Below, one piece after another: positions 23,441 to 58,601 of a stretch of DNA of 64,000 nt. The notes under the pieces are model-generated. The model was not told where the DNA came from and did not search any database. It saw nothing but the letters and a program-made list of their open reading frames with translations. Location of the stretch: NCBI GenBank assembly GCA_015178975.1, contig WHVD01000186.1, forward strand, positions 62,001 through 126,000. Reading direction: 5' to 3'. Source of the stretch: Hysterangium stoloniferum. Lineage: Eukaryota; Basidiomycota; Agaricomycetes; Hysterangiales; Hysterangiaceae. Position 1 is the stretch's first letter, and each line of letters begins with the position of its first letter. A program made the translations under genes and the position numbers.

Positions 23441-23450
23441 CCATCTAACT

Positions 23451-24513
23451 CCATGTTTGTGTAGAAGACTCCACGTTTGTGTAGAAGACTCCACGTTTGT
23501 GTAGAAGACTCCACGTTTGTGTAGAAGACTCCACGTTTGTGTAGAAGACTCCACGTTTGTGTAGAAGACTCCACGTTTGTGTAGAAGACTCCACGTTTGT
23601 GTAGAAGACTCCACGTTTGTGTAGAAGACTCCACGTTTGTGTAGAAGACTCCACGTTTGTGTAGAAGACTCCACGTTTGTGTAGAAGACTCCACGTTTGT
23701 GTAGAAGACTCCACGTTTGTGTAGAAGACTCCACGTTTGTGTAGAAGACTCCACGTTTGTGTAGAAGACTCCACGTTTGTGTAGAAGACTCCACGTTTGT
23801 GTAGAAGACTCCACGTTTGTGTAGAAGACTCCACGTTTGTGTAGAAGACTCCACGTTTGTGTAGAAGACTCCACGTTTGTGTAGAAGACTCCACGTTTGT
23901 GTAGAAGACTCCACGTTTGTGTAGAAGACTCCACGTTTGTGTAGAAGACTCCACGTTTGTGTAGAAGACTCCACGTTTGTGTAGAAGACTCCACGTTTGT
24001 GTAGAAGACTCCACGTTTGTGTAGAAGACTCCACGTTTGTGTAGAAGACTCCACGTTTGTGTAGAAGACTCCACGTTTGTGTAGAAGACTCCACGTTTGT
24101 GTAGAAGACTCCACGTTTGTGTAGAAGACTCCACGTTTGTGTAGAAGACTCCACGTTTGTGTAGAAGACTCCACGTTTGTGTAGAAGACTCCACGTTTGT
24201 GTAGAAGACTCCACGTTTGTGTAGAAGACTCCACGTTTGTGTAGAAGACTCCACGTTTGTGTAGAAGACTCCACGTTTGTGTAGAAGACTCCACGTTTGT
24301 GTAGAAGACTCCACGTTTGTGTAGAAGACTCCACGTTTGTGTAGAAGACTCCACGTTTGTGTAGAAGACTCCACGTTTGTGTAGAAGACTCCACGTTTGT
24401 GTAGAAGACTCCACGTTTGTGTAGAAGACTCCACGTTTGTGTAGAAGACTCCACGTTTGTGTAGAAGACTCCACGTTTGTGTAGAAGACTCCACGTTTGT
24501 GTAGAAGACTCCA
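23451..24513. repeat. 20-bp minisatellite, 52 full identical units
   Basis: The unit gtagaagactccacgtttgt repeats from 23461 to 24500 without a single visible difference, with a partial unit at each end (ccatgtttgt at 23451 is a variant). Because 20 is not a multiple of 3 and the unit has no stop on the minus strand, all three minus frames stay open for 370-470 codons; these are artefacts. Perfect homogeneity points to very recent amplification. Confidence 0.97.
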
Positions 24514-24524
24514 CCCTTTTCATA

Positions 24525-24690
24525 CGAGACTCCCACAGTTTCTGTAGAAGACTCTGCAGTTTCTGTAGAAGACTCTGCAGTTTCTGTAGAAGACTCTGCA
24601 GTTTCTGTAGAAGACTCTGCAGTTTCTGTAGAAGACTCTGCAGTTTCTGTAGAAGAGTCCACAGTTTTCGTAGAAAGGTCCACCTTAGCC
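24525..24690. repeat. Related 21-bp minisatellite, ~6 units
   Basis: The unit tctgtagaagactctgcagtt repeats from 24541 to about 24665, then decays (agttttcgtagaaaggtcc). It shares the core gtagaagact with the 20-bp array next to it, so the two have a common origin. Confidence 0.9.
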
Positions 24691-33016: not shown

Positions 33017-36000
33017 CTATGCCTCTCTTTTGGGACTAGTATTAGAACACACCTTCGAGATCAAGAATCCTTTATCACCAAGGTATTTCACAATCTTGAT
33101 GTGCCCCCTCTTTGATGCTGCAACCAGCGCTCGATCTCCGTCTGATCCTACATGAGAATATTCAGATTTAAGGACAAGAAGGCTAGCCTGAACGTCAACA
33201 CACCTTCGAGATCGAGACTCGCTCCTTTATCACCAAGGTATTCCACAACCTTGATGTGCCCCGCCCGTGATGCTGCAACCAGCGCTGGATCTCCGTTTGA
33301 TCCTACATGAGAATATCCAGATTTAAGGACAAGAAGGCTAGCCTAAATATCGACACACCTTTGAGATCGAGACTCGCTCCTTTATCACCAAGGTATTGAA
33401 CAATCCTGATGTGCCCCCTCTTTGATGCTGCAACCAGCGCTCGATCTCCGTCTGATCCTACATGAGAATATCCAGATTTAAGGACAAGAAGGCTAGCCTG
33501 AATATCGACACACCTTCGAGATCGAGACTCGCTCCGTTCTCACCAAGGTATTTAACAACCGCGATGCGCCCCTCCCGTGATGCTGCAACCAGCGCTGGAT
33601 CTCCGTTTGATCCTACATGAGAATATCCAGATTTAAGGACAAGAAGGCTAGCCTGAATATCGACACACCTTTGAGATCGAGACTCGCTCCGTTATCACCA
33701 AGGTATTTCACAATCTTGATGTGCCCCCTCTTTGATGCTGCAACCAGCGCTCGATCTCTCTGTGATCCTACATGAGAATATCCAGATTTAAGGACAAGAA
33801 GGCTAGCCTGAATATCGACACACCTTGGAGATCGAGACTCGCTCCATTATCACCAAGGTATTTAACAACCTCGATGTGCCCCTCCCGTGATGCTGCAACC
33901 AGCGCTCGTTCTCCGTATGATCCTACATGAAAATATCGAGATTTAAGGACAAGACTACCCTGAAAATGAACACACCTTGGAGATCAAGACTCGCTCCTTT
34001 ATCACCAAGGTATTTCACAACCTCGATGTGCCCCTCCCGTGATGCTGCAACCAACGCTCGTTCTCCCCAAAGTCCTGCATGAGAATATCCAGATTTAAGG
34101 ACAAGAAGGTTAGCCTGAATATGAACACACCTTCGAGATCAAGACTCGCTCCTTTATCACCAAGGTATTTCACAACCTCAATATGCCCCGCCTGTGATGC
34201 TACAACCAGCGCTCGATCTCCGTTTGATCCTACATGAGAATATCCAGATTTAAGTACAAGAAGGCTAGCCTGAACGTGAACACACCTTGGAGATCAAGAC
34301 TCGCTCCGTTATCACCAAGGTATTTAACAACCTCGATGTGCCCCGCCCGTGATGCTGCAACCAGCGCTCGATCTTCGTTGTATCCTACATGAGAATATCC
34401 AGATTTAAGGACAAGAAGGTTAGTCTGAATATCGACACACCTTTGAGATCGAGACTCGCTCCGTTATCACCAAGGTATTTTACAACCTCGATGTGCCCAT
34501 TCTTTGATGCTACAACCAGCGCTCGTTCTCCGTATGATCCTACATGAGAATATCCAGATTTAAGGACAAGACTACCCTGAAAATGAACACACCTTGGAGA
34601 TCAAGACCCACTCCTTTATCACCAAGGTATTTCACAACCTCGATGCGCCCATTCTGTGATGCTACAAGCAGCGCTGGTTGTCCGTCTGATCCTACATGAG
34701 AATATCCAGATTTAAGGATAAGAAGGCTAGCCTGAACGTGAACACACCTTTGAGATCGAGACTCGCTCCTTTATCACCTAGGTATTTCACAACCTCGATG
34801 TGCCCATTCTGTGATGCTACAACCAGCGCTCGGTCGCTGTATGATCCTACATGAGAATATCCAGATTTAAGTACAAGAAGGCTATCCTGAACGTGAACAC
34901 ACCTTGGAGATCAAGACTCGCTCCGTTATCACCAAGGTATTTAACAACCTCGATGTGCCCCGCCCGTGATGCTGCAACCAGCGCTCGATCTTCGTTGTAT
35001 CCTACATGAGATTATCCAGATTTAAGGACAAGAAGGCTAGTCTGAATATCGACACACCTTTGAGATCGAGACTCGCTCCTTTATCACCAAGGTATTTAAC
35101 AACCTCGATGTGCCCCTTCCGTGATGCTGCAACCAGCGCTCGTTCTCCGTATGATCCTACATGAGAATATCCAAATTTAAGGACAAGAAGGCTAGCCTGA
35201 ATATTGACACACCTTTGAGATCGAGACTCGCTCCGTTATCACCAAGGTATTTCACAACCTCGATGTGCCCATTCTTTGATGCTACAAGCAGCGCCGGATC
35301 TCCGTCTGATCCTACATGAGAATATCCAGATTTAAGGACAAGAAGGCTAGCCTGAATATCGACACACCTTCGAGATCGAGATTTGCTCCTTTATCACCAA
35401 GGTATCTCACAACCTCGATGTGCCTCGCCCGTGATGCTACAACCAGCGCTCGATCTCCGTTTGATCCTACATGAGAATATCCGGATTTAAGGACAAGAAG
35501 GCTAGCCTGAACGTGAACACACCTTGGAGATCAAGACTCGCTCCGTTATCACCAAGGTATTTAACAACCTCGATGTGCCCCCTCTTTGATGCTGCAACGA
35601 GCGCTCGATCTCCGTTTGATCCTACATGAGAATATCCAGATTTAAGGACAAGAAGGCTAGCCTGAATATCGACACACCTTCGAGATCGAGACATGCTCCT
35701 TTATCACCAAGGTATTCAACAACCTCGATGTGCCCCGCCCGTGATGCTGCAACCAACGCTCGTTCTCCCCATGATCCTGCATGAGAATATCCAGATTTAA
35801 GGACAAGACTATGCTGAAAATGAACACACCTCGGAGATCAAGACTCACTCCTTTATCACCAAGGTATTTCACAACCTCAATGTGCCCATTCTCTGATGCT
35901 ACAAGCAGTGCTGGGTGTCCGTCTGATCCTACATGAGAATATCCAGATTTAAGGATAAGAAGGCTAGCCTGAACGTGAACACACCTTCGAGATCGAAACT

Positions 36001-38363
36001 CGCTCCTTTATCACCTAGGTATTTCACAACCTCGATGTGCCCATTCTGTGATGCTACAACCAGCGCTCCGTCGCTGTATGATCCTACATGAGAATATTCA
36101 GGTTTAAGGACAAGAAGGCTAGCCTGAATATCGACACACCTTCGAGATAAAGCCTCGCTCCTTTATCACCAAGGTATTTCACAACCTCGAAGTGCCCCGC
36201 CCGTGATGCTGCAACCAGCGCTCGATCTCCGTTTGATCCTACATGAGAATATCCAGATTTAAGGACAAGAAGGCTAGCCTGAACGTGAACACACCTTCGA
36301 GATCGAGACTCGCTCCTTTATCACCAAGGTATTGAACAATCCTGATGTGCCCCCTCTTTGATGCTGCAACCAGCGCTCGATCTCCGTCTGATCCTACATG
36401 AGAATATCCAGATTTAAGGACAAGAAAGCTAGGCTGAATATGAAGATACCTTTGAGATCGAGACTCGCTCCTTTATCACCAAGGTATTTAACGACCTCGA
36501 TGTGCCCCGCCCGTGATGCTGCAACCAGTGCCCGATCTCCGTCTGATCCTAAATCAAAATATCCAGATTTAAGCACAAGACGGATAGGCTGAATATGAAC
36601 ATCCCTTCGAGATCGAGACACGCTCCCTCATCGCCCAGGTATTTCACCATTTCAAGGTCTCCCTTCTTTGAGCATACAAGCAGTGCTGAGCTAAGATATG
36701 CTCCTGTGTAATTCCAGTTAATGTTGAGTCACTCTTAGAAGCACTGCATACCTTGATCCCTGCCAGGTTCATTTCGTCTAACCAATACCTTTACCATTTC
36801 ACCCTTCCCCTGTTCTGCCAGAAACTCGAGAGCTGTCGTTTCAAAACCATTTATACCTTCATAAGAATTACTCTTTTTAAAGTCATTGTTCTGGCAATAC
36901 CTCACTTACGCAGTGCTATATCGGTAGCATCGGTAGCATTATTGTTCACCAAGAATTCCACGACCTCCAGGTCCCCCTGCTTCACAGCTGCTGCAACTGC
37001 AGTCACGCCCCTCTGATCTAACCCAGTCTCTCCAGATTGATGAAAACATGGGAAGGAAGAAAGTCATACCTTTTGTATTGACAGGCGCACCTCCCTCAAT
37101 CAGATTCTTGAACCCCTTGACTCTGCCGTTGAGTATGGCATCTCGGAACATCTCTTCCAACTTCCGTCCATCTTCTATACGCTCTTGAATCATTCTTTCT
37201 CGCCGTCGCCCAAAATCTTCCAAAACGTCACGCAGAGGGACAAGGAGGAGTAACATTGCAAGTATTTGCCCAAATGTCCAGGTTAATTCTCCCGGCTCCT
37301 GCATTGGTCGGTTCCTTCGAATAGTGGCCTCTGTATCAATGATAAATATGACATTGATCGCTGCAAGAGATAGCAGGCAAAGAGAAATCGGAAAAATGCG
37401 ACATATTTTCAGTTTCATGCGATTGGGATACTGAAGGGAGAAAAAGGAAACAAGAATGGAGAAACTGGTGTTGGTAGGTGGGGCTGAGTCGTATTTGCGA
37501 TTGAATCTAATGTAGAAAAGAAGCACGAGACTAATTGGAATGATAATGTTGAGTATTGGAACGAGAACGAGAGTGTAAATGCAGATGGAGAAGCTGCGTA
37601 GGCCGTTTGATGTAAGTGGAACCGCGTGACCTAGAACGACAATGGCTGGAGATGTTAAACAGGGAGTATTCGGAGCCACGCCAAAAGCAGTAGGATCACT
37701 CCAGAGCCAGATCCCGACCCCGGCCATAAGTGACAGGTGGATGATGCCAAGAAAGATCACGAATTTATCGGGAAGCGCTTGCTGCGTCTTGTCATTGCCA
37801 TCGCTGTTTTGAGGTGTCAATCCCTTTTGAAGAGATAGGAACTTGTGAATCCGTCCCGTCCAACTTTGCGATTCCTCCTCGAGGAGTGGATGGTGCCCTT
37901 CGACATCGGCGGAATGCATAACCCTACTACGACTCCCTTTGAACACTCGGAGAAAATCACAAAATACGCCGCACCAGAATCGCCCTCTCAAGGCGCGTTC
38001 GGGGGAGAGATTGGTTCTGTGGTGAATATAGAGCAAAAGGTAGATGAATAGATTGGTGTTGTTCATCCAACTCAAGTTGAGGATGATAGCGGCGTGGAAA
38101 GAGGTGATCCGTTGAGTCACAGCCTCGAAGATTGCTGAGACTAGGATGGCGAGAGCGGTGATGAGAATTGTCGACGCCTGGATTTCGACGGAAAAAAGTT
38201 CATCGATTGTGACTTCACCGTCGGAGATGGCGTAGAAGGCAGGTAGAAAGCTCATGAGATTCTGAGCGTAGATGGCGATCCGTACTCCTATACCGGAGAC
38301 GTCTGGATTTGCTGGAAGGCAGATTTGGGACCCGTTAGACGACATGAACACTGGGTATGGCAA
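33017..38363 (-). CDS. Multi-pass membrane protein with a long ankyrin-repeat tail, one exon per repeat
   Basis: The first exon (38363 to about 37072) begins MPYPVFMSSNGSQICLPANP and holds about seven hydrophobic segments (e.g. FVIFLGIIHLSLMAGVGIWLW-like at 37760, VLVPILNIIIPISLVLLFYI, LAMLLLLVPLRDVLEDF), ending in a first ankyrin-like piece (LIEGGAPVNTK). Divergent ankyrin exons follow at about 37015-36910 and 36870-36760. Then come 24 near-identical units: 99-bp exons, consensus GSNGDRALVAASRAGHIEVV plus KYLGDKGASLDLE, separated by 56-bp (three times 53-bp) introns, gtgtgt...catgtag, all phase 1. The last exon (33147-33017) has a 4-nt deletion and reads through into a stop at 33017-33019. 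Ankyrin arrays bind other proteins; the ligand is unknown. An alternative start is the Met at 38345. Confidence 0.85.
33148..36703 (-). repeat. Tandem array of 155-bp exon+intron units in the ankyrin gene
   Basis: Intron acceptors (cctacat on the plus strand) recur at 33147, 33302, 33457, 33612, 33767, 33922, 34074, 34229, 34384, 34539, 34691, 34846, 35001, 35156, 35311, 35466, 35621, 35776, 35928, 36083, 36238, 36393, 36548 and 36703. The step is always 155 bp, or 152 bp where the intron has lost 3 bp. Introns are about as conserved as exons, so whole units were duplicated and/or homogenised. Substitutions cluster in a few repeat positions (RAG/KRG/QRG/SKN, and the first residues after the acceptor). 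Confidence 0.95.
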
Positions 38364-43780: not shown

Positions 43781-45103
43781 TGTAATGTATTCAGGGGATT
43801 CTCTTAGATAGCTCAATATATGCTATAGTGTCACAGAGCTTCAACAATAAAACAAGCAAAGGTCCAGTAATTTAAATACTGATAGATTAATGAGCTGCGC
43901 TATGAAGCTTAAACAACTCAAATCAATGCTTATTTTGATTATTGAAAGGTTCAATAGAACTGTGTATGACTCTTTTAGCAAATACAAGAACTATTCCTTG
44001 AGAATAGGGGCTGGAAGCTGAATATATGCGCAGTAACTTGGCAGAGACTTGATATAAGAGCTTCGGATTCTTGTATGCTTATTTGTAACTATTAATAGTT
44101 ATTTAACAAGGTGTTAAATAATTTATTAATAGAGAAAATAAATTGTATTGGATTATCTGAGTGCTTGTACTTGATTAATTCAATAAACTTAGGGCTGGGC
44201 CTTGAGTAATCTAGTATTGGCAGGGATTTCAGTAAAGATACTTAGATACTTATTAGGTTTATTATCTAATTAATAAGCCTAAAGGGTAGCTGTGAGGCTG
44301 GGGAACTTAGATGATTAGCTAAGTCCAAGAGTTGCTGACAAAGATTCAAGATGCTGCAAGTGTAGGTGCTTGCAGTGAGTGTATCAGACTAAGGCTATTA
44401 TTGTCCTTAGGATGATTAGATAAGCTGGTGCTGTGCTGCAAATATGTGTGTGATAGATTGTTTTATTGGAAACTTGGCCCTCCTTATATACATTTTGATA
44501 ACTCAATGATTAGCTAACTATTTAGTTTATGAGGTCATTAGTGAGATCATAATGACCTCATATTCTACTCATTATTTACCCTTTGTTTAACATGTGATTC
44601 CCTTCTCTGAGACAAGGGTTCTAAGCTTTGGCTTGAACATGAAGGTTCAAGGCCGCGGTCCCGGGGACGGAAGCAAACGATGAGTCGGCGGAACCTAATA
44701 ATGACTCGGGTAGTCACGTTCGTGACTTGTGTGACTCGGGTAGTCACATTCGTGACTTGTGTGACTCGGGTGGTCACATTCGTGACCTTTGTGACATCCC
44801 GACACTGGAGGCTTATGTAATAAGTCACATGACTCCAAAAATGCGCAAACTAGGCTGCACAAGGTGCCGAAAGGTAATAACTAAGTAAATAAAATATAAA
44901 TAATTAGTTAAAAATTATAATAAATTAACTAAGATATAATAGCATAATATGAGTTCATATATGCTATTATTTATGCGAAGTTAAAAGGAATAAGGCCTAT
45001 TTTTCACAATAAACATAATAAAAATACAATAGAAATTAAAGAAAATATTAAATAATTCAAAGAAAATTAAGAGAATATTATGAGATAATGTTGATACATC
45101 ACA
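43781..45103 (-). repeat. LTR 1 of the dimer (3' LTR of the left unit)
   Basis: Minus-strand ends TGTGATGTATCAAC ... GAATACATTACA. A TATA box (TATATAAG, minus, 44484-44491) lies inside. A 30-bp unit (gactcgggtagtcac + rttcgtgacttgtgt) repeats three times at 44703-44792 and includes the small palindrome GTCAC...GTGAC. Confidence 0.95.
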
Positions 45104-45121
45104 AAATCCCCTCTTCCTTTT
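45104..45121 (-). promoter_or_regulatory. Polypurine tract of left unit
   Basis: Minus strand AAAAGGAAGAGGGGATTT directly precedes the 3' LTR. The same site in the right unit is at 51853-51870. It is the expected plus-strand primer of reverse transcription. Confidence 0.75.
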
Positions 45122-45570
45122 GACTGAGTCATAATACTCAATCGCTTTCTGAGAATTAAATAATACTTTGTTTTTAGATGAAACATAAATAATACTTTTG
45201 TTTTGAATGATAAAAGAATTAAGATGCTAATCTAATCAATTATCATAGTTGGGAGAAATAGGAATAACGTTGACTATTTCTTCCTGTTGATTAATTATTG
45301 ACGATGAAGTCATTGCTTGATCACTTGGTGGGGAAAAGTTGAAAATACTATCGGTTTTAGAGCTGGATAAAGCATATGAGAAGCTGGAACTTCATTTTGA
45401 AAAGGTTTCCCTTCGATGATTTTGATAGAGTAGTCCAATTCGGTGACTGGGGAGAGTTCCATATGAAATTTTAAACTTTTTTGATGTGGAAACATTTTCT
45501 TTTACTTGAATATATAAGAATGAAAGAAATAATGGCGCATATAGGGTGCATATATTGATGTTTTGGTTAT
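45122..45570. other. Internal region downstream of the RT ORF, no gene
   Basis: About 450 bp between the ORF stop and the polypurine tract. RNase H and integrase would be expected here but only short frames exist. The same holds at 51871-52319 in the second unit. Confidence 0.7.
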
Positions 45571-48500
45571 TTAGAGGCCGAGTTGGCCAGTGAGAGCTCT
45601 GTGAGTCTCGGATGGCAGCTGTGCACTCTTTCTTTTGTTTTTCCAGTCACAAAGAATTGCAGGAGCATTCTTCAGATCCTTTTTGAGTAATGAGAATAAC
45701 AGGTTGACAACCCAAGCATAAAATGGAATATATGCTGAGAAATAGACCATCATTCCCAAGAATGTTTGAAGCTCATGAACATTTCGGGGTTCTTCTAATT
45801 GCAAAATAGCATCGATCTTCTCCTTATTAGTAGATAATCCAAGTCGGGAGACTTTCTGCCTTAATAACTGAAGTGATTGGTAGGGAAAATGGCATTTTGA
45901 GGAAGATAAGGTCATTTTAGAAGCAATGATTGCTTTGAGGACTGATTCTGTATGCATTAAATGATCTTCAAAGGTCTTAGAAAAGATGACAATATCATCA
46001 ATGTAGACCAAAGCAAATATCCAGAGGAATGGGGCAAGGATATTCTGCATCACTCTCTGGAAGACTGCTGGTCCATTTCTGAATCCAAAGGGCATTCTCA
46101 AGAATTGATAAAGCCCTCTGTGTGTTCTGAAAGCTGTCTTCTCTTTATCTTTTGATGCCATTTCCAATTGAGTAAAACCGGCTAATGCATCTAGTGTAGA
46201 TAACCACTGAGATCCAGTTAATGCTTGTAATATATCATCTTGCCGAGACAGTGGAAATTCATCTGGAATTACTTGAGCATTAAGTTGCCTAAAGTCAATT
46301 ACCATCCTGGGCTTTCCTTGCCGATAAATGATAAATGCAGGAGCACCCCAAGGGCTTTTGGAAGGCTCAATGACTTGTAATTTGACCCATTTATCCATCT
46401 GCTCATCAATAATCTCTCTATTCTTAGGTGAGGCAAAGAATGGAGGTTGGGAAATTTCTCTTGTTCCTTCTCTAAGATTTATCTCCACCTTGGCAGGATA
46501 GTGGCCTAATCTTCCATCTAATCCAAAGGCTAATCGATTCTTCCATAAGATAGCCTTTAGTTGATTCTTCTGCTCCAATGATAAATCCTTATTGATATCA
46601 ATCTCTTCAAAGAATTTATCAGAGCTAATATCATCAGGAGGAGTTTCTGCTGTCTTTGGGCCACCTTCTGATTCTCCTTGAGTATTAGGCTGATCAATAG
46701 AATTGTATTTCGGATTGAGAAGTTGGCTAGCAATGCTCTTGATCAAATAGGAATGAGCACTTAGATGGGATAGTTGCTCATTGTCTAAATGTTCCAAGCT
46801 ATCTAACCATGTTTCCGGATTATGGGAGTAGCCTAGTATTTGACCTTCATGTATATGCACTGGGAAACTTGAGAAATTGGAGATATATAACTGAGGATTT
46901 TTCCGAGTAATGATAGAATCAGGAGTAGCATAAAAATCTTGGTCTCCTCTGTTAGATAAGAATATCTTCTCTATATATGCTATATCAGATCCCTTTGGGA
47001 AGGACAGGGTCACTGGTATAGCACTTATAGACTCTGGAGAAATGGTTATATCAATGCTAGACCTAACTGAATTCTCAGTTTCCTTAGATTGAATTGATTT
47101 CTTTATTTTTTTGTTCTTCCTATGAGCCTTAATTTTTCTGGCAAGATCCGAGAGCTTTGGAGTGACATTAACTTGGAAAGCTTCACCCCTTTCATCCTTT
47201 AATAAAGGTCCAATAGAATTTTGAACTTTGATAGACTTTCCACTAGAGCCAAAGCTCAAGATTGAACCTTCTTCTCCTCGGATCACTGAGATTGCATATT
47301 GGTCTGCAAAATCATTGCCAATAATGAATGGAGTAGTCATTCCTTTGACTACATAAGCTTCAATGATTAATTCGACTGGCCCTTCACTTGTATCAAAGTA
47401 AATAGGCAAGGAAATAAATCCGGATATTGTAGAGGCTCCAGTTACTTGAATTAAATTGATTCTCTGTCCATTTTTAATCTTTGGAGGATTTTCGAGTTGA
47501 GATAAAGTAGAGTGAGATATCAATGAAATGTCTGCTCCAGAATCCACTATAATATTTGTAGGATTTTTGCCATAACTTCCAAGCCATCCTTGAGTGGAAG
47601 TGGCTTGTGCTCCAAGGAAAGCACAACTGGGAGGCCTGGCCATCAGTCTTGGCAAAGAAAATATTTCCCTCTTGGTGGAATTAGCTAGTTTGATAATATA
47701 GTTCTTGACATTGAAGATTCCATTCAACATTTTCCGCTGTAATTTCTGCTCAGAGGCCCTTTTCTGCACAGTAGTTCCCATGTTATCTGAATATATGCTG
47801 GTTTTCCTTTCAGATTCAATCTCTGATCCCCTCTGACTCGACTCAGGGTCTGAAGACTGGTTATTGGAAGTGGAAACCATGTTAACTGATGTGCATATAT
47901 TCAGTGCTTGAGATGATTCTGTGTTGGAATGCTCTTCTGAATTCAATTCAATCAAATCAGATGATTCCTCTATAGTTTCTTGAGAGCTCTCTTCTTCTGA
48001 GCTACAATTGTAATAGAGGTCATCATATTCTGTTTGAGCTTGAATATATTCTTCAGTTTGACTAATAAAATTTGTCCGAGCATTTCTTATTCCTTTCTTG
48101 GAGTACTTGCAGTCATAGTCCCAATGCTTTGGGCTGCCACAATGCCTACAAGGCCTAGCCTTCTTGGATTCCGGAGTATTCCCTTTAGAGACAATTGAGT
48201 CATCTCTTGGGAACTGAGGTTTCCCAATATTAGGACTCCAACCAATTAAAGTGGATCTTGCAAACTTGAAACGGTTAGGTCTTGAGGCAAAGCCTTTAGG
48301 CTCTCTAAGTGACTGCTCCAGTTGCTTCAATCTTCTGTCTATGGAAGAGGTAGAAGAAGTGAAGAAGGATGTTTGAAGGGCTTCCTCATGATGCTTAATG
48401 GCAGTTGCAAATTCTCTCAAACTCCTATACCGGTGAGTGTCTAGAATGGCTGCCCAGAACTCAGGAGCTCCATTCATCACTTCCATGATTGTTTCAGAGT

Positions 48501-50271
48501 CTGAAAGCCTGTATACCATGCTGAGAAGCTCTGTTTTCCGAATGAAATAGCTTGTAGGAGATTCAGTGGAGTGACCTGCTTCCCGGTAGTTTGCTTTATT
48601 AGCTCTACTTTTCTGCCGGTCAAGCCAAGACCTATTCATGTAATAAACACAAATAGCCCTTCTCAAGGTACTCCAAGAGACTGTAATCTCACGGCGGTAA
48701 TCTGTTGGTAATGACCAAAACCATAAGTCGGCTTCCTTCTCAAGCCTGAGAGGGATTAATTGTCCCAACTGTTGGAATATATAGTTGCTTCGTTCAGATA
48801 GATTATTGATCTTGAATATCCATTTGGACAAAGTGTCTGGATCACCATCCCACTTGGGAATAATTTCCGGCTTCAGTTTCAGATCAAAATGAGCTTCTTG
48901 TATGCTCTTAGCACTTGTAGTATCAGGTAGCTTGGGTGGCCCCTTCATAGAATTAAATCTTCTAGGGCCACTAGGACCATTATCTCCATCATCTCCATCA
49001 CCAGGAGGACCTCCTCCTCCTTGAGAGATGTTTGATTCTCCAAATAAACCTGACCTATGAGGTCTTCTATATGATGTTCTCCTATCCCTCTCAGGATCAT
49101 AAGGTATATGCAACCCAAGAGGTTCTCTGACAGGCTCTTTCCGAGGAATTGTAGTTCCTAAACCTGTAGTAGTATAAGGCAATGAAGTCTGCCTTTCAGG
49201 AGGTCTTCTAGTTTGAGGCTCTTGTAATAACTCTGACAATCTTCGAGATTCTGACATATATGCAGGCAGATTATCATAAGGGGAGTGATCACTTGAATGA
49301 GGACTGATTGTATCTTCAGAAATATGCTTCCTAGCCTCTTGGAAGCCTCGTTCTTCATGTAGAGGCACTCCCTTTTTAGTTTCATGCTTCAAAATGCTAT
49401 AATCGATTTCTTCTCCTTCAGAAGGTAATTCAAATTTTACTTCACTTGTCATTTCTTTAGGAGTTGAATGGATTATGCCTATAGGTTCATGACTAGGTGG
49501 TTTGGAAGGTGATTCTATTTCTGGAGGAAGCTGAATCTGGCTGATCCCCTCAGACTCGACCTGGGCTGGAGAAGCCTCTTGCTCAGGTACTTCAGTTTCA
49601 CCCATAGGAATTAGAGCCTTGTGGAAATATAAATATGCCAGAGTATTCTCAATCTCTTCACGATAGAGGACTGAGATCACTTCAAAGTCTTCTTGATTCC
49701 ATGCTTCTCTAGGATTATCATTTGGTCCCCATTTGGGTAGTTTAGGTACTTGTATGCACCTTGAAGTGAGTATAGGTGTTGCCTTATCAATATGCTCTTG
49801 AAGTATCTCCTGTAATAGTTCATAACATCCAGGATCTAAATGATAGCCAGCATCTTCTAATGGCAATTCTCTATTTTCCTCACTAGGGATTCCTCCCAAT
49901 AGGTCTTCTAACAAATAGAGAGCATGAGCCGCTACCTTTTCAGCCTGCTTGGGTAAAGGCATATAGGGTAGACTCTCTGTGTTTGGAATATATCTCTTCC
50001 CAAGTTTCAAAATGAGTTCTCTCCTAGACTTGTGTGGAAAGGTTGTCTCATACAGTCTCCTCAATCTCACTGTACTTGGATAGAGGTAAGTAAGATCTCC
50101 TGGTCTGGCTCTATCATTCCTTAATAGATGCTTTTGTGGAGTAGCAGAGAAACTGTGGACTGGAGTATTGGGAATAGTAACATTAAGATGGCGGAAATGT
50201 TCAGGAGTTGTGGTAGGTGCTGGAGAGACTAATCTCTCTGGGTGTAGTTGTATGCTAGGTGTTTTGGACAT
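45571..50271 (-). CDS. Ty3/gypsy-like Gag-protease-RT polyprotein, copy 1, lacking RNase H and integrase
   Basis: 1566 codons from ATG at 50271 (MSKTPSIQLHPERLVSPAPT). Gag: Pro/Glu-rich N terminus, then the capsid-like region around residues 450-640 (PKWDGDPDTLSKWIFKINN). Zinc knuckle CRHCGSPKHWDYDC (CX2CX4HX4C) near residue 705. Aspartic protease DSGADISLIS near residue 910. RT from about 1290: GKPRMVIDFRQLNAQ, FLRMPFGFRNGPAVFQ and the catalytic VYIDDIVIFS near residue 1425. After the RT thumb (ELQTFLGMMVYFSAYIPFYA) the frame turns into an unrelated 25-residue tail and stops; RNase H and integrase are absent. The intact frame suggests recent activity, with integration functions supplied by a relative. 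Confidence 0.95.
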   Translation of the reverse strand: MSKTPSIQLHPERLVSPAPTTTPEHFRHLNVTIPNTPVHSFSATPQKHLLRNDRARPGDLTYLYPSTVRLRRLYETTFPHKSRRELILKLGKRYIPNTESLPYMPLPKQAEKVAAHALYLLEDLLGGIPSEENRELPLEDAGYHLDPGCYELLQEILQEHIDKATPILTSRCIQVPKLPKWGPNDNPREAWNQEDFEVISVLYREEIENTLAYLYFHKALIPMGETEVPEQEASPAQVESEGISQIQLPPEIESPSKPPSHEPIGIIHSTPKEMTSEVKFELPSEGEEIDYSILKHETKKGVPLHEERGFQEARKHISEDTISPHSSDHSPYDNLPAYMSESRRLSELLQEPQTRRPPERQTSLPYTTTGLGTTIPRKEPVREPLGLHIPYDPERDRRTSYRRPHRSGLFGESNISQGGGGPPGDGDDGDNGPSGPRRFNSMKGPPKLPDTTSAKSIQEAHFDLKLKPEIIPKWDGDPDTLSKWIFKINNLSERSNYIFQQLGQLIPLRLEKEADLWFWSLPTDYRREITVSWSTLRRAICVYYMNRSWLDRQKSRANKANYREAGHSTESPTSYFIRKTELLSMVYRLSDSETIMEVMNGAPEFWAAILDTHRYRSLREFATAIKHHEEALQTSFFTSSTSSIDRRLKQLEQSLREPKGFASRPNRFKFARSTLIGWSPNIGKPQFPRDDSIVSKGNTPESKKARPCRHCGSPKHWDYDCKYSKKGIRNARTNFISQTEEYIQAQTEYDDLYYNCSSEEESSQETIEESSDLIELNSEEHSNTESSQALNICTSVNMVSTSNNQSSDPESSQRGSEIESERKTSIYSDNMGTTVQKRASEQKLQRKMLNGIFNVKNYIIKLANSTKREIFSLPRLMARPPSCAFLGAQATSTQGWLGSYGKNPTNIIVDSGADISLISHSTLSQLENPPKIKNGQRINLIQVTGASTISGFISLPIYFDTSEGPVELIIEAYVVKGMTTPFIIGNDFADQYAISVIRGEEGSILSFGSSGKSIKVQNSIGPLLKDERGEAFQVNVTPKLSDLARKIKAHRKNKKIKKSIQSKETENSVRSSIDITISPESISAIPVTLSFPKGSDIAYIEKIFLSNRGDQDFYATPDSIITRKNPQLYISNFSSFPVHIHEGQILGYSHNPETWLDSLEHLDNEQLSHLSAHSYLIKSIASQLLNPKYNSIDQPNTQGESEGGPKTAETPPDDISSDKFFEEIDINKDLSLEQKNQLKAILWKNRLAFGLDGRLGHYPAKVEINLREGTREISQPPFFASPKNREIIDEQMDKWVKLQVIEPSKSPWGAPAFIIYRQGKPRMVIDFRQLNAQVIPDEFPLSRQDDILQALTGSQWLSTLDALAGFTQLEMASKDKEKTAFRTHRGLYQFLRMPFGFRNGPAVFQRVMQNILAPFLWIFALVYIDDIVIFSKTFEDHLMHTESVLKAIIASKMTLSSSKCHFPYQSLQLLRQKVSRLGLSTNKEKIDAILQLEEPRNVHELQTFLGMMVYFSAYIPFYAWVVNLLFSLLKKDLKNAPAILCDWKNKRKSAQLPSETHRALTGQLGL

Positions 50272-50507
50272 AGTAGAATTATTTCTAGTCCTACTAAGGG
50301 TAAATCGAATACTGTTAGGTGGTAAGAGAGTAGGAGTATTCGATGGAGGAATAGGTGTATTGATTTGATTCGAAGAAAGCTTTTGTAGCTTGGATGTAAC
50401 TTGATTTAGTCTTGATTTGATTTCAAAATGTTCTGGATGAAAGCCTTGGGCCAGAATATATGTGGGTTACTGAAAGATTGCTGCAACAATAGATTGAAAC
50501 AAGATTT

Positions 50508-50524
50508 TCCCAGAGCGTCCACCA
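50508..50524 (-). other. tRNA primer-binding site, left unit
   Basis: Minus strand TGGTGGACGCTCTGGGA starts five bases after the 5' LTR (50530). Its complement TCCCAGAGCGTCCACCA reads as a tRNA 3' end with CCA. The right unit has the same at 57257-57273. Confidence 0.75.
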
Positions 50525-50529
50525 ATTTT

Positions 50530-51852
50530 TGTAATGTATTCAGGGGATTCTCTTAGATAGCTCAATATATGCTATAGTGTCACAGAGCTTCAACAATAAA
50601 ACAAGCAAAGGTCCAGTAATTTAAATACTGATAGATTAATGAGCTGCGCTATGAAGCTTAAACAACTCAAATCAATGCTTATTTTGATTATTGAAAGGTT
50701 CAATAGAACTGTGTATGACTCTTTTAGCAAATACAAGAACTATTCCTTGAGAATAGGGGCTGGAAGCTGAATATATGCGCAGTAACTTGGCAGAGACTTG
50801 ATATAAGAGCTTCGGATTCTTGTATGCTTATTTGTAACTATTAATAGTTATTTAACAAGGTGTTAAATAATTTATTAATAGAGAAAATAAATTGTATTGG
50901 ATTATCTGAGTGCTTGTACTTGATTAATTCAATAAACTTAGGGCTGGGCCTTGAGTAATCTAGTATTGGCAGGGATTTCAGTAAAGATACTTAGATACTT
51001 ATTAGGTTTATTATCTAATTAATAAGCCTAAAGGGTAGCTGTGAGGCTGGGGAACTTAGATGATTAGCTAAGTCCAAGAGTTGCTGACAAAGATTCAAGA
51101 TGCTGCAAGTGTAGGTGCTTGCAGTGAGTGTATCAGACTAAGGCTATTATTGTCCTTAGGATGATTAGATAAGCTGGTGCTGTGCTGCAAATATGTGTGT
51201 GATAGATTGTTTTATTGGAAACTTGGCCCTCCTTATATACATTTTGATAACTCAATGATTAGCTAACTATTTAGTTTATGAGGTCATTAGTGAGATCATA
51301 ATGACCTCATATTCTACTCATTATTTACCCTTTGTTTAACATGTGATTCCCTTCTCTGAGACAAGGGTTCTAAGCTTTGGCTTGAACATGAAGGTTCAAG
51401 GCCGCGGTCCCGGGGACGGAAGCAAACGATGAGTCGGCGGAACCTAATAATGACTCGGGTAGTCACGTTCGTGACTTGTGTGACTCGGGTAGTCACATTC
51501 GTGACTTGTGTGACTCGGGTGGTCACATTCGTGACCTTTGTGACATCCCGACACTGGAGGCTTATGTAATAAGTCACATGACTCCAAAAATGCGCAAACT
51601 AGGCTGCACAAGGTGCCGAAAGGTAATAACTAAGTAAATAAAATATAAATAATTAGTTAAAAATTATAATAAATTAACTAAGATATAATAGCATAATATG
51701 AGTTCATATATGCTATTATTTATGCGAAGTTAAAAGGAATAAGGCCTATTTTTCACAATAAACATAATAAAAATACAATAGAAATTAAAGAAAATATTAA
51801 ATAATTCAAAGAAAATTAAGAGAATATTATGAGATAATGTTGATACATCACA
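50530..51852 (-). repeat. LTR 2, shared by both units
   Basis: Identical in layout to LTR 1. It serves as the 5' LTR of the left unit and the 3' LTR of the right unit. Its neighbours are internal sequences (primer-binding side at the left, polypurine side at the right), so no target duplication is present. Confidence 0.95.
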
Positions 51853-52319
51853 AAATCCCCTCTTCCTTTTGACTGAGTCATAATACTCAATCGCTTTCTG
51901 AGAATTAAATAATACTTTGTTTTTAGATGAAACATAAATAATACTTTTGTTTTGAATGATAAAAGAATTAAGATGCTAATCTAATCAATTATCATAGTTG
52001 GGAGAAATAGGAATAACGTTGACTATTTCTTCCTGTTGATTAATTATTGACGATGAAGTCATTGCTTGATCACTTGGTGGGGAAAAGTTGAAAATACTAT
52101 CGGTTTTAGAGCTGGATAAAGCATATGAGAAGCTGGAACTTCATTTTGAAAAGGTTTCCCTTCGATGATTTTGATAGAGTAGTCCAATTCGGTGACTGGG
52201 GAGAGTTCCATATGAAATTTTAAACTTTTTTGATGTGGAAACATTTTCTTTTACTTGAATATATAAGAATGAAAGAAATAATGGCGCATATAGGGTGCAT
52301 ATATTGATGTTTTGGTTAT

Positions 52320-55300
52320 TTAGAGGCCGAGTTGGCCAGTGAGAGCTCTGTGAGTCTCGGATGGCAGCTGTGCACTCTTTCTTTTGTTTTTCCAGTCACA
52401 AAGAATTGCAGGAGCATTCTTCAGATCCTTTTTGAGTAATGAGAATAACAGGTTGACAACCCAAGCATAAAATGGAATATATGCTGAGAAATAGACCATC
52501 ATTCCCAAGAATGTTTGAAGCTCATGAACATTTCGGGGTTCTTCTAATTGCAAAATAGCATCGATCTTCTCCTTATTAGTAGATAATCCAAGTCGGGAGA
52601 CTTTCTGCCTTAATAACTGAAGTGATTGGTAGGGAAAATGGCATTTTGAGGAAGATAAGGTCATTTTAGAAGCAATGATTGCTTTGAGGACTGATTCTGT
52701 ATGCATTAAATGATCTTCAAAGGTCTTAGAAAAGATGACAATATCATCAATGTAGACCAAAGCAAATATCCAGAGGAATGGGGCAAGGATATTCTGCATC
52801 ACTCTCTGGAAGACTGCTGGTCCATTTCTGAATCCAAAGGGCATTCTCAAGAATTGATAAAGCCCTCTGTGTGTTCTGAAAGCTGTCTTCTCTTTATCTT
52901 TTGATGCCATTTCCAATTGAGTAAAACCGGCTAATGCATCTAGTGTAGATAACCACTGAGATCCAGTTAATGCTTGTAATATATCATCTTGCCGAGACAG
53001 TGGAAATTCATCTGGAATTACTTGAGCATTAAGTTGCCTAAAGTCAATTACCATCCTGGGCTTTCCTTGCCGATAAATGATAAATGCAGGAGCACCCCAA
53101 GGGCTTTTGGAAGGCTCAATGACTTGTAATTTGACCCATTTATCCATCTGCTCATCAATAATCTCTCTATTCTTAGGTGAGGCAAAGAATGGAGGTTGGG
53201 AAATTTCTCTTGTTCCTTCTCTAAGATTTATCTCCACCTTGGCAGGATAGTGGCCTAATCTTCCATCTAATCCAAAGGCTAATCGATTCTTCCATAAGAT
53301 AGCCTTTAGTTGATTCTTCTGCTCCAATGATAAATCCTTATTGATATCAATCTCTTCAAAGAATTTATCAGAGCTAATATCATCAGGAGGAGTTTCTGCT
53401 GTCTTTGGGCCACCTTCTGATTCTCCTTGAGTATTAGGCTGATCAATAGAATTGTATTTCGGATTGAGAAGTTGGCTAGCAATGCTCTTGATCAAATAGG
53501 AATGAGCACTTAGATGGGATAGTTGCTCATTGTCTAAATGTTCCAAGCTATCTAACCATGTTTCCGGATTATGGGAGTAGCCTAGTATTTGACCTTCATG
53601 TATATGCACTGGGAAACTTGAGAAATTGGAGATATATAACTGAGGATTTTTCCGAGTAATGATAGAATCAGGAGTAGCATAAAAATCTTGGTCTCCTCTG
53701 TTAGATAAGAATATCTTCTCTATATATGCTATATCAGATCCCTTTGGGAAGGACAGGGTCACTGGTATAGCACTTATAGACTCTGGAGAAATGGTTATAT
53801 CAATGCTAGACCTAACTGAATTCTCAGTTTCCTTAGATTGAATTGATTTCTTTATTTTTTTGTTCTTCCTATGAGCCTTAATTTTTCTGGCAAGATCCGA
53901 GAGCTTTGGAGTGACATTAACTTGGAAAGCTTCACCCCTTTCATCCTTTAATAAAGGTCCAATAGAATTTTGAACTTTGATAGACTTTCCACTAGAGCCA
54001 AAGCTCAAGATTGAACCTTCTTCTCCTCGGATCACTGAGATTGCATATTGGTCTGCAAAATCATTGCCAATAATGAATGGAGTAGTCATTCCTTTGACTA
54101 CATAAGCTTCAATGATTAATTCGACTGGCCCTTCACTTGTATCAAAGTAAATAGGCAAGGAAATAAATCCGGATATTGTAGAGGCTCCAGTTACTTGAAT
54201 TAAATTGATTCTCTGTCCATTTTTAATCTTTGGAGGATTTTCGAGTTGAGATAAAGTAGAGTGAGATATCAATGAAATGTCTGCTCCAGAATCCACTATA
54301 ATATTTGTAGGATTTTTGCCATAACTTCCAAGCCATCCTTGAGTGGAAGTGGCTTGTGCTCCAAGGAAAGCACAACTGGGAGGCCTGGCCATCAGTCTTG
54401 GCAAAGAAAATATTTCCCTCTTGGTGGAATTAGCTAGTTTGATAATATAGTTCTTGACATTGAAGATTCCATTCAACATTTTCCGCTGTAATTTCTGCTC
54501 AGAGGCCCTTTTCTGCACAGTAGTTCCCATGTTATCTGAATATATGCTGGTTTTCCTTTCAGATTCAATCTCTGATCCCCTCTGACTCGACTCAGGGTCT
54601 GAAGACTGGTTATTGGAAGTGGAAACCATGTTAACTGATGTGCATATATTCAGTGCTTGAGATGATTCTGTGTTGGAATGCTCTTCTGAATTCAATTCAA
54701 TCAAATCAGATGATTCCTCTATAGTTTCTTGAGAGCTCTCTTCTTCTGAGCTACAATTGTAATAGAGGTCATCATATTCTGTTTGAGCTTGAATATATTC
54801 TTCAGTTTGACTAATAAAATTTGTCCGAGCATTTCTTATTCCTTTCTTGGAGTACTTGCAGTCATAGTCCCAATGCTTTGGGCTGCCACAATGCCTACAA
54901 GGCCTAGCCTTCTTGGATTCCGGAGTATTCCCTTTAGAGACAATTGAGTCATCTCTTGGGAACTGAGGTTTCCCAATATTAGGACTCCAACCAATTAAAG
55001 TGGATCTTGCAAACTTGAAACGGTTAGGTCTTGAGGCAAAGCCTTTAGGCTCTCTAAGTGACTGCTCCAGTTGCTTCAATCTTCTGTCTATGGAAGAGGT
55101 AGAAGAAGTGAAGAAGGATGTTTGAAGGGCTTCCTCATGATGCTTAATGGCAGTTGCAAATTCTCTCAAACTCCTATACCGGTGAGTGTCTAGAATGGCT
55201 GCCCAGAACTCAGGAGCTCCATTCATCACTTCCATGATTGTTTCAGAGTCTGAAAGCCTGTATACCATGCTGAGAAGCTCTGTTTTCCGAATGAAATAGC

Positions 55301-57020
55301 TTGTAGGAGATTCAGTGGAGTGACCTGCTTCCCGGTAGTTTGCTTTATTAGCTCTACTTTTCTGCCGGTCAAGCCAAGACCTATTCATGTAATAAACACA
55401 AATAGCCCTTCTCAAGGTACTCCAAGAGACTGTAATCTCACGGCGGTAATCTGTTGGTAATGACCAAAACCATAAGTCGGCTTCCTTCTCAAGCCTGAGA
55501 GGGATTAATTGTCCCAACTGTTGGAATATATAGTTGCTTCGTTCAGATAGATTATTGATCTTGAATATCCATTTGGACAAAGTGTCTGGATCACCATCCC
55601 ACTTGGGAATAATTTCCGGCTTCAGTTTCAGATCAAAATGAGCTTCTTGTATGCTCTTAGCACTTGTAGTATCAGGTAGCTTGGGTGGCCCCTTCATAGA
55701 ATTAAATCTTCTAGGGCCACTAGGACCATTATCTCCATCATCTCCATCACCAGGAGGACCTCCTCCTCCTTGAGAGATGTTTGATTCTCCAAATAAACCT
55801 GACCTATGAGGTCTTCTATATGATGTTCTCCTATCCCTCTCAGGATCATAAGGTATATGCAACCCAAGAGGTTCTCTGACAGGCTCTTTCCGAGGAATTG
55901 TAGTTCCTAAACCTGTAGTAGTATAAGGCAATGAAGTCTGCCTTTCAGGAGGTCTTCTAGTTTGAGGCTCTTGTAATAACTCTGACAATCTTCGAGATTC
56001 TGACATATATGCAGGCAGATTATCATAAGGGGAGTGATCACTTGAATGAGGACTGATTGTATCTTCAGAAATATGCTTCCTAGCCTCTTGGAAGCCTCGT
56101 TCTTCATGTAGAGGCACTCCCTTTTTAGTTTCATGCTTCAAAATGCTATAATCGATTTCTTCTCCTTCAGAAGGTAATTCAAATTTTACTTCACTTGTCA
56201 TTTCTTTAGGAGTTGAATGGATTATGCCTATAGGTTCATGACTAGGTGGTTTGGAAGGTGATTCTATTTCTGGAGGAAGCTGAATCTGGCTGATCCCCTC
56301 AGACTCGACCTGGGCTGGAGAAGCCTCTTGCTCAGGTACTTCAGTTTCACCCATAGGAATTAGAGCCTTGTGGAAATATAAATATGCCAGAGTATTCTCA
56401 ATCTCTTCACGATAGAGGACTGAGATCACTTCAAAGTCTTCTTGATTCCATGCTTCTCTAGGATTATCATTTGGTCCCCATTTGGGTAGTTTAGGTACTT
56501 GTATGCACCTTGAAGTGAGTATAGGTGTTGCCTTATCAATATGCTCTTGAAGTATCTCCTGTAATAGTTCATAACATCCAGGATCTAAATGATAGCCAGC
56601 ATCTTCTAATGGCAATTCTCTATTTTCCTCACTAGGGATTCCTCCCAATAGGTCTTCTAACAAATAGAGAGCATGAGCCGCTACCTTTTCAGCCTGCTTG
56701 GGTAAAGGCATATAGGGTAGACTCTCTGTGTTTGGAATATATCTCTTCCCAAGTTTCAAAATGAGTTCTCTCCTAGACTTGTGTGGAAAGGTTGTCTCAT
56801 ACAGTCTCCTCAATCTCACTGTACTTGGATAGAGGTAAGTAAGATCTCCTGGTCTGGCTCTATCATTCCTTAATAGATGCTTTTGTGGAGTAGCAGAGAA
56901 ACTGTGGACTGGAGTATTGGGAATAGTAACATTAAGATGGCGGAAATGTTCAGGAGTTGTGGTAGGTGCTGGAGAGACTAATCTCTCTGGGTGTAGTTGT
57001 ATGCTAGGTGTTTTGGACAT
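52320..57020 (-). CDS. Ty3/gypsy-like Gag-protease-RT polyprotein, copy 2
   Basis: Same 1566-residue product as copy 1, with the same zinc knuckle, DSGA protease and YIDD RT motifs and the same early end after the RT. No residue difference is visible between the two translations. It lies 6749 bp from copy 1. Confidence 0.95.
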   Translation of the reverse strand: MSKTPSIQLHPERLVSPAPTTTPEHFRHLNVTIPNTPVHSFSATPQKHLLRNDRARPGDLTYLYPSTVRLRRLYETTFPHKSRRELILKLGKRYIPNTESLPYMPLPKQAEKVAAHALYLLEDLLGGIPSEENRELPLEDAGYHLDPGCYELLQEILQEHIDKATPILTSRCIQVPKLPKWGPNDNPREAWNQEDFEVISVLYREEIENTLAYLYFHKALIPMGETEVPEQEASPAQVESEGISQIQLPPEIESPSKPPSHEPIGIIHSTPKEMTSEVKFELPSEGEEIDYSILKHETKKGVPLHEERGFQEARKHISEDTISPHSSDHSPYDNLPAYMSESRRLSELLQEPQTRRPPERQTSLPYTTTGLGTTIPRKEPVREPLGLHIPYDPERDRRTSYRRPHRSGLFGESNISQGGGGPPGDGDDGDNGPSGPRRFNSMKGPPKLPDTTSAKSIQEAHFDLKLKPEIIPKWDGDPDTLSKWIFKINNLSERSNYIFQQLGQLIPLRLEKEADLWFWSLPTDYRREITVSWSTLRRAICVYYMNRSWLDRQKSRANKANYREAGHSTESPTSYFIRKTELLSMVYRLSDSETIMEVMNGAPEFWAAILDTHRYRSLREFATAIKHHEEALQTSFFTSSTSSIDRRLKQLEQSLREPKGFASRPNRFKFARSTLIGWSPNIGKPQFPRDDSIVSKGNTPESKKARPCRHCGSPKHWDYDCKYSKKGIRNARTNFISQTEEYIQAQTEYDDLYYNCSSEEESSQETIEESSDLIELNSEEHSNTESSQALNICTSVNMVSTSNNQSSDPESSQRGSEIESERKTSIYSDNMGTTVQKRASEQKLQRKMLNGIFNVKNYIIKLANSTKREIFSLPRLMARPPSCAFLGAQATSTQGWLGSYGKNPTNIIVDSGADISLISHSTLSQLENPPKIKNGQRINLIQVTGASTISGFISLPIYFDTSEGPVELIIEAYVVKGMTTPFIIGNDFADQYAISVIRGEEGSILSFGSSGKSIKVQNSIGPLLKDERGEAFQVNVTPKLSDLARKIKAHRKNKKIKKSIQSKETENSVRSSIDITISPESISAIPVTLSFPKGSDIAYIEKIFLSNRGDQDFYATPDSIITRKNPQLYISNFSSFPVHIHEGQILGYSHNPETWLDSLEHLDNEQLSHLSAHSYLIKSIASQLLNPKYNSIDQPNTQGESEGGPKTAETPPDDISSDKFFEEIDINKDLSLEQKNQLKAILWKNRLAFGLDGRLGHYPAKVEINLREGTREISQPPFFASPKNREIIDEQMDKWVKLQVIEPSKSPWGAPAFIIYRQGKPRMVIDFRQLNAQVIPDEFPLSRQDDILQALTGSQWLSTLDALAGFTQLEMASKDKEKTAFRTHRGLYQFLRMPFGFRNGPAVFQRVMQNILAPFLWIFALVYIDDIVIFSKTFEDHLMHTESVLKAIIASKMTLSSSKCHFPYQSLQLLRQKVSRLGLSTNKEKIDAILQLEEPRNVHELQTFLGMMVYFSAYIPFYAWVVNLLFSLLKKDLKNAPAILCDWKNKRKSAQLPSETHRALTGQLGL

Positions 57021-57278
57021 AGTAGAATTATTTCTAGTCCTACTAAGGGTAAATCGAATACTGTTAGGTGGTAAGAGAGTAGGAGTATTCGATGGAGGAA
57101 TAGGTGTATTGATTTGATTCGAAGAAAGCTTTTGTAGCTTGGATGTAACTTGATTTAGTCTTGATTTGATTTCAAAATGTTCTGGATGAAAGCCTTGGGC
57201 CAGAATATATGTGGGTTACTGAAAGATTGCTGCAACAATAGATTGAAACAAGATTTTCCCAGAGCGTCCACCAATTTT

Positions 57279-58601
57279 TGTAATGTATTCAGGGGATTCT
57301 CTTAGATAGCTCAATATATGCTATAGTGTCACAGAGCTTCAACAATAAAACAAGCAAAGGTCCAGTAATTTAAATACTGATAGATTAATGAGCTGCGCTA
57401 TGAAGCTTAAACAACTCAAATCAATGCTTATTTTGATTATTGAAAGGTTCAATAGAACTGTGTATGACTCTTTTAGCAAATACAAGAACTATTCCTTGAG
57501 AATAGGGGCTGGAAGCTGAATATATGCGCAGTAACTTGGCAGAGACTTGATATAAGAGCTTCGGATTCTTGTATGCTTATTTGTAACTATTAATAGTTAT
57601 TTAACAAGGTGTTAAATAATTTATTAATAGAGAAAATAAATTGTATTGGATTATCTGAGTGCTTGTACTTGATTAATTCAATAAACTTAGGGCTGGGCCT
57701 TGAGTAATCTAGTATTGGCAGGGATTTCAGTAAAGATACTTAGATACTTATTAGGTTTATTATCTAATTAATAAGCCTAAAGGGTAGCTGTGAGGCTGGG
57801 GAACTTAGATGATTAGCTAAGTCCAAGAGTTGCTGACAAAGATTCAAGATGCTGCAAGTGTAGGTGCTTGCAGTGAGTGTATCAGACTAAGGCTATTATT
57901 GTCCTTAGGATGATTAGATAAGCTGGTGCTGTGCTGCAAATATGTGTGTGATAGATTGTTTTATTGGAAACTTGGCCCTCCTTATATACATTTTGATAAC
58001 TCAATGATTAGCTAACTATTTAGTTTATGAGGTCATTAGTGAGATCATAATGACCTCATATTCTACTCATTATTTACCCTTTGTTTAACATGTGATTCCC
58101 TTCTCTGAGACAAGGGTTCTAAGCTTTGGCTTGAACATGAAGGTTCAAGGCCGCGGTCCCGGGGACGGAAGCAAACGATGAGTCGGCGGAACCTAATAAT
58201 GACTCGGGTAGTCACGTTCGTGACTTGTGTGACTCGGGTAGTCACATTCGTGACTTGTGTGACTCGGGTGGTCACATTCGTGATCTTTGTGACATCCCGA
58301 CACTGGAGGCTTATGTAATAAGTCACATGACTCCAAAAATGCGCAAACTAGGCTGCACAAGGTGCCGAAAGGTAATAACTAAGTAAATAAAATATAAATA
58401 ATTAGTTAAAAATTATAATAAATTAACTAAGATATAATAGCATAATATGAGTTCATATATGCTATTATTTATGCGAAGTTAAAAGGAATAAGGCCTATTT
58501 TTCACAATAAACATAATAAAAATACAATAGAAATTAAAGAAAATATTAAATAATTCAAAGAAAATTAAGAGAATATTATGAGATAATGTTGATACATCAC
58601 A
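57279..58601 (-). repeat. LTR 3 of the dimer (5' LTR of the right unit)
   Basis: Same length as LTRs 1 and 2. One base differs (gtgatctttgtg instead of gtgacctttgtg near 58284). It is followed on the right by the ACAGG duplication. As the 5' LTR on the minus strand it should hold the active promoter. Confidence 0.95.

Follow-up and report, generated by a model that had tools for sequence, protein, structure and literature searches.

An ankyrin gene of the fungus Hysterangium stoloniferum with one repeat per phase-1 exon, a variable putative binding face and a predicted membrane domain

The ankyrin array and its exon structure

A long tandem array of ankyrin repeats was found on the minus strand of a 64,000-nucleotide stretch of the Hysterangium stoloniferum genome (contig WHVD01000186.1, here C97; C97:62001-126000), which we call the window. 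Positions given without a contig refer to the window, and the genome searches covered 111.1 Mb in 554 contigs. The array consists of 22 units, each with an exon of exactly 99 bp and a short GT-AG intron of 56 bp (19 units) or 53 bp (three units). The exons span 36548-33204, the last of them (unit 22) being 33302-33204; all 22 are free of stop codons and indels, and each encodes a single 33-residue ankyrin repeat. The junctions all read G/GA, so that a glycine codon is split after its first base (phase 1). Since every exon has the same length and phase, units could be added, deleted or skipped with the reading frame intact, as an earlier note on this DNA had proposed. Its count of 24 such exons held for 22; the number 24 is reached only by including unit 0, which has a GG donor, and unit 23, which carries a 4-bp deletion.

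Tandem Repeats Finder reported a single array at 33045-36647 with a period of 155, 23.3 copies and a score of 5173; chance is therefore not an issue. The unspliced array contains 55, 54 and 51 stops in the three minus-strand frames, and the longest open stretch is 116 amino acids. An intronless reading is thus ruled out, and introns are needed to read the array. Units 1-8 matched the Pfam families PF12796 (154.5 bits, cut-off 27.3) and PF00023 (129.9 bits, cut-off 21.1, in eight stretches), with Ank_2 at 1.1e-45, and their best match in the PDB was the ankyrin-1/2 chain 4rlv_A (E 7.2e-80). Among the 22 units, 21 distinct repeat protein sequences occur, with 19 distinct faces formed by the seven residues defined below.

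The whole gene and its predicted membrane domain

The earlier note described the array but overlooked three things: the putative membrane exon upstream of it, the damage to the splice donor at unit 0, and the decay of the paralogous copies. The gene starts beyond the range given there, at 38345, and is laid out as follows.

37070..38345, minus strand: exon 1, 1276 bp; open frame of 425 codons plus the first base of the next, ending in phase 1
36910..37017, minus strand: exon 2, 108 bp; divergent ankyrin-like repeat, phase 1, preceded by a 52-bp intron
36752..36856, minus strand: exon 3, 105 bp; divergent ankyrin-like repeat, phase 1, preceded by a 53-bp intron
36605..36703, minus strand: exon 4 (unit 0), 99 bp; divergent ankyrin repeat, phase 1; GG stands at the donor position instead of GT
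33148..36548, minus strand: units 1-22, the array of 99-bp exons and their introns, phase 1
33017..33147, minus strand: unit 23, the terminal ankyrin repeat, which lacks 4 bp near its end; then a TAG stop (33019-33017)

The three divergent ankyrin exons upstream of the array are also in phase 1; therefore, the arrangement of one repeat per phase-1 exon predates the amplification. Exon 1 is predicted to encode a multi-pass membrane domain. Its hydropathy profile has five separate regions above 1.6, and a structural model of low confidence (mean predicted local distance difference test score, pLDDT, 42.6; predicted template modelling score, pTM, 0.43) contains seven helices of at least 20 residues. 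The model was too poor for assigning a fold, and that attempt was dropped. No Pfam family scored above its cut-off in exon 1, including NACHT, NB-ARC and ROC-COR. A NOD-like receptor (NLR) identity was ruled out, since exon 1 lacks a NACHT domain and the 38 listed NACHT matches are all on contigs other than C97. The NACHT-neighbouring ankyrin frames observed in the genome are long open frames without introns of this kind.

Variation among the units

The earlier note had stated that the introns are as conserved as the exons. The self-alignment of the 22 units bears this out, with a nucleotide diversity of 0.082 in the introns and 0.131 in the exons. For the repeat as a whole, the ratio of the proportion of replacement differences (pN) to that of synonymous differences (pS) is 1.06; however, it is uneven along the repeat. 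Positions 14, 3, 13 and 33 are the most variable, and positions 1, 7, 11, 12, 20, 22, 23, 24, 27 and 32 have no replacement change at all. As the ligand-facing set we used positions 2, 3, 5, 13, 14, 26 and 33, which we take to be those randomised in designed ankyrin binders.

The mean pN is 0.33 at these seven positions and 0.07 elsewhere (permutation p 3e-5). Relative to the overall pS (0.126), pN is 2.6 at the seven positions (bootstrap 2.07-3.31) and 0.55 at the remaining positions (bootstrap 0.33-0.84), both frequency-weighted. In a second test, less sensitive to copying between units, each distinct variant was counted once. Replacement variants took up 21 of 46 opportunities at the seven positions, compared with 14 of 77 for synonymous variants (p 0.0018); in the introns the count was 22 of 141. 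The excess of amino-acid change at ligand-facing positions, for which the earlier note had suggested looking, is thus present in both tests.

Paralogous arrays

In the DNA search of the genome, two further arrays (C24:83-86k and C201:632-634k) and one fragment (C111:70k) came up. In C24 (L039 and L066, C24:80501-96000), the homology stops at the 3' end of exon 1, and most of this exon is lost. A 965-residue retrotransposon frame with reverse transcriptase, RNase H and integrase begins about 500 bp past the end of the homology, and one unit of the array (unit 7) is frameshifted. At C201, exon 1 is still present (70% identity), although in-frame stops and frameshifts interrupt it. The match between C111 and the C97 locus is confined to the 3' end (97.6% over 1106 bp) and a 271-bp stretch further downstream. 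Of the exon 1 changes, those assigned to the C97 copy fall on codon positions 1, 2 and 3 in numbers of 16, 5 and 15, and those assigned to the C201 copy in numbers of 12, 13 and 12. Judged by this distribution, the C201 copy looks neutral, and the C97 copy appears mildly constrained.

Amplification and homogenisation of the units

The intron divergence between the C97 and C24 arrays is 0.192, and that within C24 is 0.177. The value within the C97 array, 0.083, is less than half of the divergence between the two loci, which fits amplification or homogenisation of the units after the loci split, and the proposal of the earlier note agrees with this. The surface pN is 0.329 within the C97 locus and 0.345 between the loci. 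Taken together, these contrasts indicate that silent variation is lower than expected since the split, while variation of the binding face is not.

Some unit pairs were copied recently: one of 155 sites differs between units 11 and 15, and the pair 10-11 resembles the pair 14-15. In a tree of the units, which took in six units of C201, the grouping is largely by locus, and the C24 group is weakly supported (0.395). The single C111 unit falls inside the C97 group, and unit 1 of C97 lies on the side of the paralogues under midpoint rooting.

Other patterns were considered and did not find support. Movement of exon and intron as one fixed block is not borne out: the correlation of exon with intron distances between units is weak and not significant (three versions of the Mantel test; r 0.12 to 0.16, p 0.06 to 0.14), and sites show little linkage at any distance, without significant decay (p 0.13). 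A four-unit higher-order repeat had a nominal p of 0.013, which became 0.15 after correction for periods 2 to 8. No sign of repeat-induced mutation was found, the TpA/ApT ratio being 0.60 in the array and 0.80 in the window.

Cousin genes with 3-bp microexons

Five cousins with 39 to 41% identity combine the membrane domain with a few divergent ankyrin repeats, and they also change frame between repeats. Beyond the ankyrin exons, four of the five possess arrays with a period of about 73 bp, in which 70-bp GT-AG intron-like units surround 3-bp exons. The 98 triplets are distributed over these loci as follows.

C24:441501-451000 (L061): 42 triplets
C542:185001-194999 (L062): 40 triplets
C209:61501-68792 (L064): 14 triplets
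C507:366001-375900 (L063): 2 triplets

None of the triplets is a stop codon, compared with 11 expected from base composition; this contrast is overstated, since the triplet copies depend on one another and two loci nearly duplicate each other. The diversity is 0.70 in the 3-bp exons and 0.29 in the intron interior. For the unit profile, neighbouring intervals with a length of exactly 73 bp (32 of 45) were used, and the finder demands an acceptor and a donor motif, so that the conservation of these motifs is by construction. With at most one mismatch, the pattern has 35 matches in the genome (control, 0), and they occur only at the membrane-ankyrin cousin loci. The motif had no match on either strand of the 64-kb window.

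Other repeats and elements in the window

Two tandem retrotransposon-like copies of 6749 bp with no difference between them occupy 44700-58600, and a third copy of the end repeat starts at 58200. This duplicate is either a recent event or an assembly artefact. A 20-bp repeat at 23448-24675 has 61 copies with 97% matches, and its period leaves all three frames of the minus strand open, over 372 to 469 codons. A 10-bp repeat with about 29 copies lies at 10151-10437, and a mosaic of repeats with periods of 14 to 118 bp at 13072-14515. The frame at 59283-60272 has a Helitron helicase-like N-terminal domain (E 1.8e-18).

Interpretation of the locus

On balance, the gene probably encodes a recognition protein with an ankyrin solenoid anchored in the membrane; diversifying selection would have acted on its repeat exons, which were amplified and homogenised in units of exon plus intron. 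Its ancestor would have had the membrane domain and a few ankyrin repeats, already placed one per phase-1 exon. The 99-bp exon with its intron may then have multiplied, one unit or a short block at a time, until there were 22, and recombination among the units would have partly homogenised them. The structural residues of the repeat would have been kept, and those of the usual ankyrin binding face diversified. If the introns are spliced as predicted and the gene is still active, the most likely product of such a history is a fast-evolving, membrane-anchored binding surface for the recognition of nonself or of a partner. Four features speak in combination for a recognition protein diversified through the turnover of its repeat exons: the architecture, the common phase, the scarcity of silent variation peculiar to this locus, and the excess of replacement change at the binding face.

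Several observations weigh against this interpretation. The donor of unit 0 is GG, and the three paralogous arrays are all damaged (truncated, decayed or fragmentary). When distinct variants are counted at the positions outside the ligand-facing set, replacement (25/159) is not below synonymous change (14/77, p 0.71). The C24 array, for which 15 of 17 units were used for the exons (the frameshifted unit 7 and the terminal unit 17 were dropped) and 16 of 17 for the introns, varies at the seven ligand-facing positions (p 0.002), but replacement there does not significantly exceed silent change (pN 0.244, pS 0.188; 17/45 and 24/80, p 0.43). Intronless ankyrin arrays, represented by four loci on three contigs (C531 twice, overlapping), also vary most at the seven positions (p 0.0044 to 0.033), with a ratio of pN at these positions to pS of about 0.8 to 1.5. 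Moreover, the identity of the seven ligand-facing positions with those of the designed binders is an assumption.

The strongest rival explanation, which we regard as possible but doubtful, is that the gene is a recently silenced relic, in which the lost donor of unit 0 severs the array from the membrane domain and too little time has passed for the array to decay. The C24 and C201 copies both have GT where unit 0 has GG, and if the unit-0 intron is retained, the protein ends after 547 residues, short of the array. The damage to all three paralogues and the distinct-variant counts, which reveal no constraint at structural positions, also point to a relic. However, the 22 exons have acquired neither stop nor indel, and skipping of unit 0 joins phase 1 to phase 1, giving an open spliced frame of 1265 residues. 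The frequency-weighted ratio at structural positions stays below one even at its upper bound of 0.84, and second codon positions are under-represented among the exon 1 changes (5/36). The unit-0 lesion is the main weakness of the functional reading, and it also illustrates how symmetric exons tolerate damage. At the other end of the array, the frame of unit 23 continues past its deletion to the TAG; the terminal unit of the C111 fragment, judged by eye, is shortened by the same 4-bp length.

An unlikely explanation is that the array is a coding minisatellite without a recognition role, which grew by slippage and unequal exchange and whose variable positions are the structurally tolerant ones. 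Long tandem repeats abound in the genome (35 rows for the window alone), and the preference for the seven positions is a general property of ankyrin repeats, because it is also found in C24 and the intronless arrays. However, tolerance can raise replacement at most to the silent rate. What is distinctive of the C97 array is that replacement change at the seven positions exceeds both synonymous and intron change.

It is highly improbable that the introns are introner-like elements inserted singly into an ankyrin array, as their near-identity and the mention of such elements in fungi in PMC4815162 might suggest, and this idea is largely refuted: a 30-base intron stretch (at most three mismatches) occurs 29 times in the genome, in four ankyrin arrays only (C97 22, C201 3, C111 2, C24 2; control, 0), every intron sits at the same codon, and the introns separating the divergent upstream exons have the phase in common but not the sequence.

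As a separate observation, two of the intronless arrays, L003 on C531 and L004 on C57, have an identical 33-residue repeat in common, which suggests an exchange of repeats between loci.

Together with its cousins, the gene might belong to a fungal family of membrane-ankyrin receptors with interchangeable exons on two scales, 33-residue repeats here and single-codon microexons in the cousins. One locus could then yield a repertoire by exon skipping and by germline turnover of units, Dscam-like in principle. We put this wider proposal forward only as a speculation with a rather small chance of being correct.

Comparison with known systems

Among the systems considered, the nearest counterparts of the C97 gene are the exon-per-repeat receptors of brown algae and fungal NLRs whose repeats are nearly identical. 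In the ROCO genes of brown algae, each leucine-rich repeat (LRR) occupies its own 72-bp phase-2 exon, and exon shuffling, diversifying selection and alternative splicing are described (PMC11378527). The C97 gene resembles these ROCO and the NB-ARC-TPR candidate immune receptors in having one repeat per exon, a fixed length, a single phase and the signature of diversifying selection. In contrast, its repeats are ankyrin rather than LRR or TPR, its exons are 99 bp in phase 1 rather than 72 bp in phase 2, and a predicted membrane domain takes the place of ROC-COR or NB-ARC (PMC11378527). Alternative splicing has been demonstrated for the algal receptors (PMC11378527); in the C97 gene, it would be allowed by the common exon phase.

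In fungal NLRs, tandem ankyrin repeats are near-identical, and the sites that vary lie on the concave face (PMC4986451). The C97 gene shares the near-identical repeats and the variation on the binding face, but it has no NACHT or NB-ARC match. Shuffling of near-identical repeats is known from fungal recognition proteins, the cases considered being NLRs, and the C97 gene appears to extend it to a predicted membrane protein. The NACHT-ANK genes of Tuber melanosporum contain 3-bp microexons (PMC4986451, PMC9815663, PMC3689799, PMC10197012) and, like the present gene, are ankyrin genes diversified via tandem small exons. However, the exons of the C97 array are 99 bp and not 3 bp, and the 3-bp exons of the cousins stand beside a membrane domain and not beside NACHT.

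Exon 4 of human ANK1 encodes 33 residues and keeps the frame when skipped (PMC5762591), as a unit of the C97 array would; the comparison covers this exon only, and the ANK1 repeats are divergent, without a homogenised array. The statement of the earlier note that ankyrin genes usually lack one-to-one intron placement was too strong, in view of this exon and of the algal LRR exons. Wheat Lr14a, which has a role in race-specific resistance, combines ankyrin repeats with membrane association (PMC7878491), as is predicted for the C97 gene. No report of a fungal ankyrin gene with one repeat per exon was recognised among the literature matches listed, from a search in which subscription papers were mostly not covered.

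Each repeat of the C97 gene is isolated as a phase-1 exon; therefore, variation by recombination and variation by splicing could be separated within one locus. The gene would be a natural ankyrin array that varies mainly at the positions taken to be randomised in designed ankyrin binders. It would also be a fungal counterpart to the exon-per-repeat receptors of brown algae.

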